Positions 50,264 to 53,754 of a stretch of DNA of 64,000 nt are shown here, piece by piece. The stretch's first letter is position 1; each line of letters starts with the position of its first letter. The DNA is from Xanthobacteraceae bacterium (lineage in GTDB: Bacteria > Pseudomonadota > Alphaproteobacteria > Rhizobiales > Xanthobacteraceae), in NCBI GenBank assembly GCA_019635635.1, contig JAHBZB010000001.1:1302001-1366000 (forward strand). Reading direction: 5' to 3'. The notes below the pieces were generated by a model. The model had not been told where the DNA came from and ran no database searches. It saw only the letters and a list, made by a program, of their open reading frames with translations. Made by a program: the position numbers and the translations under genes.

Positions 50264-50323
50264 GAGAATGTTCCTTGCCTTTGGACCGGAAAGCGCCTTG
50301 CTTTGTATGGAATGGAACATGAC

Positions 50324-50569
50324 GTGCGGTTCTTGTCACTTCTGGCGGCGGCGATGCTCGTGCCGGCCGGGCCGCTCGCCGCGCAATCGTTATACCGGCT
50401 CTTGCCCCACGAACGCTATTGCATGGATGCGGAGTTTCAAGGTGCGAGCACCGGAGTGCTTTGCCGCTTCACGACCATGGATCAATGTCTGGCGTCGCGG
50501 CGTTCAAGAGAAGAAAAATGCTTCCTCAATCCGATTCTTGCGTTCGAGCAACAACAAAAGAAGAAATAG
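50324..50569 (+). CDS. Exported DUF3551-like protein, copy 1 of 3
   Basis: The product has about 81 residues. GTG at 50324 starts a signal peptide (VRFLSLLAAAMLVPAGPLAAQ). The mature part has RYCMDAEFQGASTGVLCRFTTMDQCLASRRSREEKCFLNP, a four-Cys pattern (C-x13-C-x6-C-x9-C) that fits DUF3551, a family common in Bradyrhizobium relatives and without assigned function. Upstream ATG (50312) and TTG (50303) codons are alternatives. The next paralogue begins 11 bases after the stop. Confidence 0.78.
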   Translation: MRFLSLLAAAMLVPAGPLAAQSLYRLLPHERYCMDAEFQGASTGVLCRFTTMDQCLASRRSREEKCFLNPILAFEQQQKKK

Positions 50570-50580
50570 CGGAGACACCC

Positions 50581-50838
50581 ATGAAAAAAACGATCCTCGC
50601 ATGTCTGCTGGCGTCGGCATTCTTCGCCGGCGGGGCTGAAGCGCAAAAGAACCCGCCTTACGATCTGTGGTGCCGGGATGCGCAGCTCGGCCGCGCGGGC
50701 GGCAGCGTCATGGTCTGTCGCGCCTATACCTATGAGCAGTGCATGGCTTCGCGCAACAGCCACATCGAAACCTGCTATCTCAATCCGCTATACGACAAGC
50801 GCAATGCCGGATGGCGCAAGAATCATCCGAATTACTAG
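50581..50838 (+). CDS. Exported DUF3551-like protein, copy 2 of 3
   Basis: This 85-residue protein has a signal peptide (MKKTILACLLASAFFAGGAEA). The mature part shows DLWCRDAQLGRAGGSVMVCRAYTYEQCMASRNSHIETCYLNPLYD, with the four-Cys DUF3551 pattern and the shared core EQCMAS-x7-C-LNP. The ATG at 50581 has GGAG 7 bases upstream. It lies in a three-gene tandem array with 10-11-base gaps, so it is almost certainly co-transcribed with its paralogues. Confidence 0.82.
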   Translation: MKKTILACLLASAFFAGGAEAQKNPPYDLWCRDAQLGRAGGSVMVCRAYTYEQCMASRNSHIETCYLNPLYDKRNAGWRKNHPNY

Positions 50839-50848
50839 GAATGAGAGA

Positions 50849-51103
50849 ATGAAAAAACTGCTTCTGGTAACCGTAGCGCTGGCTCTATCAGCGCCCGCGG
50901 TTTCGTTCGCGCAGCAGCGCATGCCGCAGAACACTACCCAGAACGTCCCCTATGACCGGTGGTGCAGGGACCAGGGACTGGACTTCACTTCGGTTCAGAT
51001 TTGCTGGGCGTATACCTTTGAACAATGCATGGCCTCGCGCACCAGTCCCGCCGAGACCTGCTATCTCAACCCACGTTACGATCCGCGTTTCCGCGGCGGC
51101 TAG
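50849..51103 (+). CDS. Exported DUF3551-like protein, copy 3 of 3
   Basis: This 84-residue protein has a signal peptide (MKKLLLVTVALALSAPAVSFA). The mature part has DRWCRDQGLDFTSVQICWAYTFEQCMASRTSPAETCYLNPRYD. It is closest to copy 2 (shared EQCMASR and ETCYLNP, and the same WCRD start), which suggests recent duplication. The ATG at 50849 has AGGA upstream. Its TAG overlaps the stop of the convergent gene at 51100 within CTAG. Confidence 0.82.
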   Translation: MKKLLLVTVALALSAPAVSFAQQRMPQNTTQNVPYDRWCRDQGLDFTSVQICWAYTFEQCMASRTSPAETCYLNPRYDPRFRGG

Positions 51104-51309: not shown

Positions 51310-51422
51310 CAGAAATCTCCTTGCAGCGAGGCGGGGCCGCGTCGTGCGCGGCTTGCCCTTGATGAGAAAAACGCCTTGAGTGGAGCCAAGGTTCCTCAAG
51401 GCCAAATTCCAGCAGGCGTTTC

Positions 51423-52046
51423 TTGTCTTTTCCGTTCGATGCCACTTTCAAAGCGATGGTCGCCGCGCGCTGTGCGGCTTTCCAGCGGGAGCCGGTGGAA
51501 CCCGGAAAGGCGCTGAAACAGGCGGCGGTTGCGGTTACGCTCGCCGATGACGGCGCCGGCAAGGCGGCGTTCATTCTGACCGAGCGGCCATCCACCATGC
51601 GCAATCATGCCGGGCAGTGGGCGCTGCCGGGCGGACGTTGCGACGAAGGCGAGACGGTTGCGCGAGCCGCGTTACGCGAAATCGAGGAAGAGATCGGGCT
51701 TTCGATTCCCGAGCACGAAGTGCTCGGCACGCTCGACGATTTCGTCTCGCGTTCGGGCTATCGCATTACGCCGGTCGTGGTGTGGGCGGAGCGCAGCGAG
51801 CCGTTGCGGTTGAATGCAGACGAAGTCGCTTTCGCTTATCGGGTCGCGCTCGAAGATTTCGTCACGGAAGAAAGCGTGAGCTTCGTGTCGATCAAGGAAA
51901 GTCCGCGCCCCGTTATTCGCATCCGGCTGATGGGCAGTCACCTGCATGCGCCGACCGCTGCGATCGTCTATCAGTTCTCCGAACTGCTGCATGGCCGCGT
52001 CAAGCGGGTTTCCGAGTTTGAGCAGCCGTTGTTCGCGTGGCGTTGA
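51423..52046 (+). CDS. CoA pyrophosphatase-like Nudix hydrolase
   Basis: This 207-residue protein has AAVAVTLADDGAGKAAFILTERPSTMRNHAGQWALPGGRCDEG leading into the Nudix box GRCDEGETVARAALREIEEEIGL. The preceding LTERP-x(5)-HAGQWALPGG is the pattern of the CoA-diphosphatase (NudL/YeaB) branch. The start is TTG at 51423 (AGG upstream); an ATG at 51456 would also keep the domain. It lies 47 bases upstream of the TetR gene, and the TetR operator lies in that gap. Confidence 0.85.
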   Translation: MSFPFDATFKAMVAARCAAFQREPVEPGKALKQAAVAVTLADDGAGKAAFILTERPSTMRNHAGQWALPGGRCDEGETVARAALREIEEEIGLSIPEHEVLGTLDDFVSRSGYRITPVVVWAERSEPLRLNADEVAFAYRVALEDFVTEESVSFVSIKESPRPVIRIRLMGSHLHAPTAAIVYQFSELLHGRVKRVSEFEQPLFAWR

Positions 52047-52075
52047 AGACCGCGTCTCGACGCCCCATCTGCGGC

Positions 52076-52096
52076 AATGTAAAAGCGATTCACATG
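52076..52096. promoter_or_regulatory. Imperfect TetR operator overlapping the TetR start codon
   Basis: The half-sites AATGTAAAA (52076-52084) and ATTCACATG (52088-52096), spaced by GCG, match 8 of 9 and 7 of 9 bases of the perfect palindrome at 52765-52785 in the same 9-3-9 layout. The right half covers the ATG at 52094, so binding would block transcription start or initiation of the regulator. Confidence 0.65.
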
Positions 52097-52726
52097 AGCT
52101 GGAAACACCGTGGCCGCGGCCCGCGCGGCTATCATCACGGCGACCTGCGCGAGGATCTGGTCCGCGCAGCGCTGGAACTGATCAAGGAGAAGGGGCCTGC
52201 GGGCTTCACCTTCGCCGATGCCGCGCGCTGGGCAGGCGTGTCGCCGGCGGCGCCTTACCGTCATTTCCGCGACCGCGATCAATTGCTCACGGATGTAGCG
52301 AAGCGCGGTTTCCAGCTTTTCTCCGAGCGGCTTCGCGAAGCCTGGGGCGAAGGCAAGCCGACGCCTTCCGAAGCCTTCAAGCGCCTCGGCGCGGCCTACC
52401 TCAACTTCGCGCGTCAGGAGCCCGGCTATTACGCGGCGATGTTCGAGAGCGGGGTTCCCATCGGCGACGAACCGGAATTGCGCGAGATCGCCGACCGCTC
52501 GTTCCAGCAGTTGCGCGCGGCGGCGGAGATACTGGTCGCGCGGATGCCGGAGAAGGGCAGGCCGCCCGCGCTGATGGTAGCGCTGCATATCTGGTCGATG
52601 ACGCATGGCATTGCTTCGCTGTTTGCGCGCGCGGACGCCGCGCGCCGCACGCTGCCGATGCGTGCCGAAGATCTGCTCGAAGCCCAGACCCTCATTTATT
52701 TCAAAGGCTTGGGGCTGGAGCCCTGA
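52094..52726 (+). CDS. TetR family regulator with WHG-type C-terminal domain
   Basis: This is a 210-residue repressor-type protein. The helix-turn-helix is at about 20-65: YHHGDLREDLVRAALELIKEKGPAGFTFADAARWAGVSPAAPYRHFRDRDQLL. The C-terminal ligand domain, with ALMVALHIWSMTHGIASLF, is the WHG type. The start at 52094 (MSWKHRGRGPRG) matches relatives but has no SD and lies inside a palindrome; a GTG at 52037 is an alternative. The target is probably the DUF2852 gene just downstream, whose promoter has a perfect copy of the same palindrome, with autoregulation. Confidence 0.9.
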   Translation: MSWKHRGRGPRGYHHGDLREDLVRAALELIKEKGPAGFTFADAARWAGVSPAAPYRHFRDRDQLLTDVAKRGFQLFSERLREAWGEGKPTPSEAFKRLGAAYLNFARQEPGYYAAMFESGVPIGDEPELREIADRSFQQLRAAAEILVARMPEKGRPPALMVALHIWSMTHGIASLFARADAARRTLPMRAEDLLEAQTLIYFKGLGLEP

Positions 52727-52753
52727 CGGCCGGAAAATTCTTTCCGAAAGCCC

Positions 52754-52781
52754 TTGACTCGGCCAATGTAAATGTTATTTA
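52754..52781 (+). promoter_or_regulatory. Candidate promoter of the DUF2852 gene
   Basis: TTGACT (52754-52759) and TATTTA (52776-52781) are spaced by 16 bases. The -10 lies within the TetR palindrome at 52765-52785, the classic layout for repression. Confidence 0.55.
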
Positions 52782-52785
52782 CATT
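52765..52785. promoter_or_regulatory. Perfect TetR operator upstream of the DUF2852 gene
   Basis: AATGTAAAT (52765-52773) and ATTTACATT (52777-52785) are exact inverted repeats around GTT. The 21-bp site overlaps the predicted -10 and lies 29 bases before the DUF2852 start; a related imperfect copy overlaps the TetR start codon. Confidence 0.75.
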
Positions 52786-52813
52786 CACACGAGGCCCGAG
52801 GGAGGGCCGACAA

Positions 52814-53281
52814 ATGGAGAGCGACATGCCTATCGCCGCAAGGATCGATCAGTTCGGAATGCTCGCCTGGATCGCGTTGATGGTCCTTGGCTTCGTCGTC
52901 TGGTGGCCGCTGGGCCTCGTCGCCCTCGCGTTCATCATCGCCACGGGAAGATTTTGGAGTGGAAACATGGGTTACGGATATGGCGGCTGCGCTTCGCGCC
53001 GCGAACACAAGATGCAGAAGCTGCAATGGAAGATGGATCGCATGCGCTCGCGCGTGATGGGCGGCCACGCCTTCGACTACGCGCCGTCTTCCGGCAACCG
53101 CGCGTTCGACGAGTATCGCTCGGAAACGCTGAAGCGGCTCGAGGACGAGCAGCGCGAGTTTCAGGATTTCCTCGACCGGCTGCGCTTTGCGAAAGACAAG
53201 ACCGAGTTCGACCAGTTCATGGCCGAGCGCAAGGACAAGACGGTCGACGGCGACGCGAACGCTGATCGGCGTCCGGAATAA
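52814..53281 (+). CDS. DUF2852 membrane-anchored protein
   Basis: The product has about 155 residues. It has one membrane helix pair near the N-terminus (MLAWIALMVLGFVVWWPLGLVALAFIIATG), a Gly/Tyr patch (GNMGYGYGGCASR) and a long charged C-terminal helix (EYRSETLKRLEDEQREFQDFLDRLRFAKDKTEFDQFMAERK). This is the DUF2852 layout. ATGs at 52814 and 52826 both have good SD sequences. The promoter carries the TetR palindrome, so it is probably repressed by the neighbouring TetR until a ligand is sensed. Function unknown. Confidence 0.87.
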   Translation: MESDMPIAARIDQFGMLAWIALMVLGFVVWWPLGLVALAFIIATGRFWSGNMGYGYGGCASRREHKMQKLQWKMDRMRSRVMGGHAFDYAPSSGNRAFDEYRSETLKRLEDEQREFQDFLDRLRFAKDKTEFDQFMAERKDKTVDGDANADRRPE

Positions 53282-53302
53282 TCTCTCTCCCAGCGAAACT
53301 GC

Positions 53303-53331
53303 AAAGGCCGCCCGGAAGGGCGGCCTTTTTT
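53303..53331 (+). terminator. Intrinsic terminator after the DUF2852 gene
   Basis: A perfect 11-bp stem (AAAGGCCGCCC with GGGCGGCCTTT) with a GGAA tetraloop is followed by a T run to 53331. Confidence 0.92.
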
Positions 53332-53379
53332 GCTGAAAAGTTCTTGTGGCATATTCGCGGTCAATCGTGGGAGGCCGTC

Positions 53380-53754
53380 ATGGTGAAACCGGTTGGATTG
53401 ATTTTTGCCGCGTTGTTCCTGAGCTTGGGCGTGGGTCACGCCGCCGCGCAAAATGTCGAGGGGCTTCACATGGAAGCCTGCACCGAGTGGCGGACCTTCA
53501 ACGGCAATCATTACACGCGCAACGCATGCCGCCGGGCGGTCACCGTGTGGTTCATGACGCTCGACGGAAGTCACCGCGACGTGCGGCGTCTGGAGCGCAA
53601 CGAAGCGTTCGACACCGGCATTGCGGCAGAGCGCGCCAAGGATCCCGGCTGGATCGGTGCGACTTGCCCGGCGGGCTTCCGGCCGAACGTCGAATTTGCG
53701 TCGCTCAACAAGGAACGCTTTTTCGCAAGCGACTACGATTGCGTGCCGGACTAG
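53380..53754 (+). CDS. Exported Cys-containing protein, unknown function (124 aa)
   Basis: ATG at 53380 with GGGAGG upstream starts a signal peptide (MVKPVGLIFAALFLSLGVGHAAA). The mature part has four Cys: MEACTEW, NACRRAVTVWF, ATCPAGFRPN and DYDCVPD. No family recognised. Its TAG overlaps the stop of the convergent four-Cys gene at 53751 within CTAG. Confidence 0.75.
   Translation: MVKPVGLIFAALFLSLGVGHAAAQNVEGLHMEACTEWRTFNGNHYTRNACRRAVTVWFMTLDGSHRDVRRLERNEAFDTGIAAERAKDPGWIGATCPAGFRPNVEFASLNKERFFASDYDCVPD

Follow-up and report, generated by a model that had tools for sequence, protein, structure and literature searches.

A predicted private TetR switch for a DUF2852 membrane protein, with an operator that appears to supply the repressor's start codon

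Within the window, by which we mean the whole 64,000-nucleotide stretch of Xanthobacteraceae DNA that was analysed, a gene for a TetR-family repressor is followed by a gene for a membrane protein of the DUF2852 family, and each of the two is accompanied by a version of one palindrome (Table 1). In a profile search the repressor scores 40.4 bits against TetR_N (cut-off 24) and 59.4 bits, likewise above the cut-off, against TetR_C_33. Its structure is predicted with good confidence (pLDDT 85.8, pTM 0.81), and the best matches among solved structures are the TetR-type regulators 1zk8, 3on2 and 3vpr. Neither the model nor these matches contains a pointer to the ligand, and none of the named NCBIfam TetR equivalogs fits the protein, the best reaching 32.3 bits against a cut-off of 250. 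The second protein, translated from the ATG at 52814, matches PF11014 with 149.1 bits (cut-off 22.5) and is encoded by the only DUF2852 gene in the genome. Its predicted structure, in which long helices lie at both ends, the N-terminal one hydrophobic, is of low overall confidence (pTM 0.29), and this model was left out of the fold search. Elsewhere in the window, at 50303-51103, lie three adjacent small secreted-looking proteins, whose common motif C...QC(M/L)ASR...E.C(Y/F)LNP suggests that they are tandem paralogues.

Table 1. Genes, operators and promoter elements of the TetR-DUF2852 locus, in window coordinates
Feature	Position	Strand	Remarks
TetR-family repressor, 210 aa	52094..52726	+	TetR_N + TetR_C_33; TetR fold; start backed by conserved M-x-W
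DUF2852 membrane protein, 151 aa	52826..53281	+	PF11014; in-frame ATG 52814 also a possible start
TetR operator	52076..52096 (19-bp core 52077-52095)	.	one palindrome, lying over promoter and start codon; conserved in 87/92 TetR rows
DUF2852 operator, register 1	52765..52785	.	perfect palindrome; exact 7-5-7 pattern in 40/101 relatives
DUF2852 operator, register 2	52772..52790	.	overlapping 19-bp palindrome, 6-bp shift
-35-like hexamer TTGACT of DUF2852 promoter	52754..52759	+	same place, at least 5/6, in 5/5 collected loci of the genus
-10-like TATTTA inside DUF2852 operator (inferred, spacer 16)	52776..52781	+	placed from -35
-35-like hexamer TCGACG of tetR promoter (inferred)	52057..52062	+	fixed distance to operator in relatives
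-10-like hexamer TAAAAG in left half-site (inferred, spacer 17)	52080..52085	+	placed from fixed -35
Predicted tetR transcription start, 0-2 nt before ATG (inferred)	52092..52094	+	spacing from conserved -35-like hexamer

In the literature searched, the DUF2852 family is named in two papers; a search by Pfam number turned up mostly malaria gene numbers, and one by locus tag yielded no new mention. According to the accessible portion of one study, the Bradyrhizobium diazoefficiens member bll7160 is raised in microoxia (log2 change of 2.5 for the protein, 2.1-fold for the transcript) and 4.9-fold in bacteroids, and that portion does not include it among the listed FixK2 or NifA targets (PMC6515984). 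The member in Brucella suis is lowered in a mapB mutant, according to the accessible portion of another (PMC6377625).

A sequence-only reading of this DNA had described a perfect 9-3-9 palindrome before the DUF2852 gene and an imperfect version over the TetR start codon, and both are indeed present, beyond chance expectation. The former, AATGTAAATGTTATTTACATT at 52765-52785, is a perfect inverted repeat. The latter, a near copy at 52076-52096, covers the TetR ATG and pairs at 6 of 9 positions, counted by hand, when it is read as a 9-3-9 repeat; between the 21-mer at 52075-52095 and its counterpart stretch at DUF2852 the identity is 81%. Written as ATGTAAA-N5-TTTACAT, the DUF2852 site (52766-52784) has no mismatch and the TetR site (52077-52095) has one, and the last two bases of the TetR site are the AT of the TetR ATG at 52094. 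In shuffled windows 0.00 occurrences of the 21-mer are expected at up to three mismatches. For the 7-5-7 pattern at the same tolerance the window holds three matches against 0.20 expected, the third of which (53453, 3 mismatches) lies inside another reading frame. Across the genome (3.37 Mb) the TetR and DUF2852 sites are the only places within one mismatch of the pattern, and allowing two mismatches yields four places, namely these two and a pair of 2-mismatch sites; the reversed pattern, our control, has no match there. Since both of the additional sites fall inside other reading frames, we do not claim a wider regulon.

The exact 7-5-7 pattern occurs in 40 of 101 relatives, and the reversed control in none of them. 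Besides the window, 29 of these pattern loci were opened (L035-L063), and 28 of them, all but L042, hold relatives of both TetR and DUF2852, which supports the earlier supposition that the two sites belong together and to this gene pair. A search with the TetR protein returned 60 named loci, nearly all of them with DUF2852 downstream and both sites; the patterns of this search included the N-terminal peptide, a possible bias. The exact-pattern search and the class-wide search described below were not begun from that peptide, although the class-wide alignment does include the N-terminus.

The pair also appears to be self-contained. A relative of the Nudix gene that lies upstream of TetR in the window was found in 7 of 61 loci, adjoining TetR in four (the window, L065, L066 and L068) and lying some 1.24 kb away in three; it was not found in the other 54, some of which have little upstream sequence. 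Because it adjoins TetR so seldom, the TetR-DUF2852 pair stands alone. Among the loci compared the Nudix relative is confined to this genus, and the idea of a CoA-linked inducer was therefore dropped. In eleven loci TetR and DUF2852 are separated by one or more inserts, most of which lie on the opposite strand, and these inserted genes give no firm link to function; reading by eye, without a family search, we take them to include NmrA/QorB-like, HxlR-like and CZB-like proteins. At L071, L072, L083, L089, L091, L103, L109 and L110 the inserted genes part the pair by about 0.7-3.3 kb, and both operators are kept.

The operator at the TetR gene was compared over 92 rows from two draws, a site being defined by at most three mismatches. 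We left out L096 and L123, which are cut at the TetR end, and L029, which has no site. We also kept out repeat loci of the same genome and L005, L021, L022, L028, L031, L032 and L034, which come from genus genomes that are covered, or nearly so, by L064-L069 and the window. The operator is present in 87 of the 92 rows; the remaining five, like L029 outside the set, have no site at this threshold. All 87 operators share ATGT, an A at the sixth base and the terminal ACAT, and both half-sites are near-invariant. The base that follows the operator is G in 86 of 87, completing an ATG, and its mirror C is kept in 58; at the DUF2852 operators the same base is T in 80 of 87.

This operator ATG occurs in two forms. 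In the direct form (60 rows), to which the window belongs, it is the in-frame start of TetR, without any mini-ORF. In the mini-ORF form (26 rows) it opens an ORF of 5-18 codons, six codons in 17 of the 26, with no common peptide, whose TGA overlaps the TetR ATG as ATGA, a stop/start overlap of the RTGA type; this holds for 25 of the 26, and the other is a chain of three. The one further operator has no ATG. Measured against TetR, the operator's 18th base falls in frame 0 in 61 rows, in frame 2 in 26 and in frame 1 in none (n = 87, with the ATA locus L033 counted). Given these starts, TetR begins with M-x-W in 54 of 60 direct rows and in all 26 mini-ORF rows, and since the motif is found in both forms, the same N-terminus is reached by both routes. 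At least ten changes between the forms are counted on a TetR tree that was built quickly, has long branches and carries no bootstrap values. Two loci deserve separate mention: at L033 the operator ATG is replaced by ATA and the mini-ORF frame is kept, and at L070, the chain of three, successive mini-ORFs joined by ATGA overlaps lie on a repeated CATGACTTC-like unit. The comparison thus indicates that the operator ATG would be used as a translation start, and the frame use and the M-x-W motif bear out ATG 52094 as the real start of TetR. Some of the ATGA conservation could reflect operator contact, the mirror T and C also being favoured.

In a separate draw across the class, 59 of 289 genomes contained a TetR match, and 29 of the 30 loci returned were examined, the window's own being left out. 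Operators were found in 22 of the 29 (18 direct, two with coupled mini-ORFs and two exceptions), and the operator-ATG rule is obeyed in 20 of these 22; seven loci have no recognisable operator. The exceptions are L127, where the site is not followed by G and there is no ATG, and L138, which has ATG-TAG with GGAGG downstream. DUF2852 is nearby in 25 of the 29, and a fixed -35 was not seen by eye in these loci. The class-wide set includes repeats: L133 duplicates L112 in both operator and mini-ORF peptide, and L129 duplicates L100 in its operator.

We turn to the promoter and leader of tetR. When 51400-53400 was scanned for generic promoters, no sigma-70-type site turned up (0.3 expected by chance), and the promoters in Table 1 were therefore inferred from conservation. 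A match of at least 4/6 to TTGACA stands at one fixed distance from the TetR operator in 56 of 87 rows, as against 8 of 87 for the best of 49 other offsets. By eye, no Shine-Dalgarno-like sequence precedes 52094; such a match is found before the operator ATG in 11 of 87 rows, before TetR in 3 of 26 rows of the mini-ORF class, and before DUF2852 in 58 of 67 scorable cases. No in-frame start exists upstream in 33 of the 60 direct rows, and some such start exists in the other 27, including the window (GTG 52037). Given the fixed -35, the frame use of the ATG and the scarcity of Shine-Dalgarno matches, we take a leaderless or nearly leaderless tetR message to be most likely, and the earlier suggestion of a leaderless message thereby gains probable support from the comparison.

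The promoter of DUF2852 is placed differently in this genus. Most relatives have their -35-like hexamer 27 or 26 positions ahead of the DUF2852 operator, and the -10 abuts the operator's left edge. Here the hexamer lies at -11, so that the -10 must fall inside the operator, in agreement with the overlap of operator and -10 proposed before. The five middle bases of the pattern are variable at TetR operators and read TGTTA in most DUF2852 operators, where T(C/A/T)ACA mostly follows the site directly and forms, with TGTTA, a second palindrome shifted by 6 bp. Under a strict core, TGTnA/TnACA, this second palindrome is found at +6 in 52 of 87 DUF2852 operators, at -6 in 2 of 87 and at 12 other shifts in none; the same core is found in 0 of 87 TetR operators at any shift tried. 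The DUF2852 operator would often, then, consist of two overlapping 19-bp palindromes set 6 bp apart. The sequence-only reading had predicted weaker repression of tetR than of DUF2852. The extra half-sites, which that reading had not noticed, would give firmer grounds for expecting DUF2852 to be the more strongly repressed gene than the mismatch count, which taken alone is, judging from sequence, a poor guide to repression strength, because several relatives (L071, L081, L086, L089, L093, L097 and L109) have a mismatch-free TetR operator.

Two further features of this region may be recorded. The DUF2852 frame is open from an ATG at 52772 inside the gene's own operator, in the half-site ATGTTA, and this ATG probably arises as a side effect of the second register. 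In 25 of 61 loci (a hand count, L070-L118) an additional site, ATGTGAAGGGTCTTGACAT being an example, is placed 40 bp before the DUF2852 operator; the right half of this type of site contains a TTGACA -35, and the site may be a putative third operator in those lineages.

We consider it highly probable that the locus forms a private, autoregulated two-gene TetR switch for DUF2852, with a leaderless repressor message that starts from an operator-embedded ATG. The paired operators, their fixed place and the double register emerge from comparison of sequences. In the proposed switch, a TetR dimer on the single operator would cover the tetR promoter and start codon and so repress tetR, and TetR on the double operator, over the DUF2852 promoter, would repress DUF2852. 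The tetR message would begin at, or within about 2 nt of, the operator ATG and be translated leaderlessly, and TetR output would presumably be low. In other lineages the operator ATG would open a mini-ORF, from which ribosomes would be passed to tetR by the ATGA overlap. A ligand would free TetR, whereupon DUF2852 would be made with a normal Shine-Dalgarno leader.

It is important to weigh this switch against other readings of the same sites. The tetR gene might, for example, lie on the message of the Nudix gene upstream, its translation either beginning at GTG 52037 or being coupled to the stop codon of Nudix, with the operator lying within coding sequence; the tetR frame is indeed open back to that GTG, and the GTG overlaps the Nudix gene's end. 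Such an origin is very improbable in our judgement, given that a Nudix relative lies directly before TetR in only 4 of 61 loci, that in 33 of the 60 direct rows the frame contains no start upstream, and that the conserved M-x-W begins at the operator ATG or at the ATGA.

We give equally little credence to the proposal that the bases G and A just past the TetR operator serve only as protein contacts, the ATG being coincidental and the message having an ordinary leader. T is the preferred base at one mirror position (72 of 87) and C at the other (58 of 87), and the operator may extend to TCATGT...ACATGA, but G is kept more strictly than the mirror C (86 versus 58), and contacts cannot explain the 61/26/0 frame use, the 25 of 26 single ATGA overlaps with one three-step chain, the M-x-W start or the rare Shine-Dalgarno matches. 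The cognate binder of the palindromes might also be a regulator other than this TetR, for among the loci first opened L027 (G041) carries DUF2852 but lacks a site and any TetR within its 1.5-kb flank, and L024 (G037) combines DUF2852 with a 2-mismatch site and lacks TetR there. Since 28 of the 29 pattern loci contain site and TetR gene together, and 87 of 92 rows have the site right at TetR, we rate this explanation lowest of all.

The elements of this switch may be compared with known systems. In double operators of the QacR type, two palindromes overlap with a 6-bp shift, an arrangement suited to two dimers. The DUF2852 operators resemble this type, as far as sequence can tell, in their 6-bp-shifted overlapping palindromes, the second register being clear in 52 of 87 under the strict core test. 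At the repressor gene the closer likeness is to AcuR, an alphaproteobacterial TetR repressor whose primary transcript, according to the accessible part of its description, is mapped exactly to the AUG, with no Shine-Dalgarno sequence. Both are TetR repressors of their own leaderless message (here a predicted one), with an inverted-repeat operator over the promoter and no Shine-Dalgarno sequence. According to that same part, however, the AcuR operator is another sequence, TAATAGAC-n6-GTCTATTA, and a single promoter serves repressor and targets, whereas here DUF2852 has its own -35-like hexamer and double operator; nor does that part mention a mini-ORF form.

In mycobacteria, an account accessible in part describes leaderless small ORFs whose stop overlaps the next start as RTGA, 23 of 220 being coupled in this way (PMC4633059). 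The mini-ORFs reported here share with them the RTGA overlap and an architecture that is kept where the peptide is not (PMC4633059). They differ in standing at one orthologous gene (25 of 26 singly coupled, and one chain of three), in having their start codon within an operator, and in that other relatives lack the mini-ORF. The letters of the operator core were not found in the literature searched, and the literature on leaderless TetR genes and mini-ORFs, searched by title, held no match to this arrangement. Each element is already known on its own, the leaderless TetR gene from AcuR and the coupled leaderless mini-ORF from mycobacteria; the interchange of direct and mini-ORF forms at an operator-embedded start codon across Alphaproteobacteria looks new, as far as the literature was searched.

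Because TetR would be made only from the leaderless operator AUG, directly or via the mini-ORF, the level of repressor may track the cell's capacity for leaderless initiation, and DUF2852 may be released also by a change of ribosome state under stress. We think this unlikely, but if true, the switch would be a reporter of leaderless translation. On a practical note, the starts of such TetR genes may be misplaced by gene callers. The locus provides a naturally occurring series that spans a bacterial class and in which one operator AUG would start the repressor either directly or via a mini-ORF, so that leaderless initiation and stop-start handover may be compared side by side at one gene in Gram-negative bacteria; and the predicted dedicated repressor would give a defined handle on the DUF2852 membrane protein.
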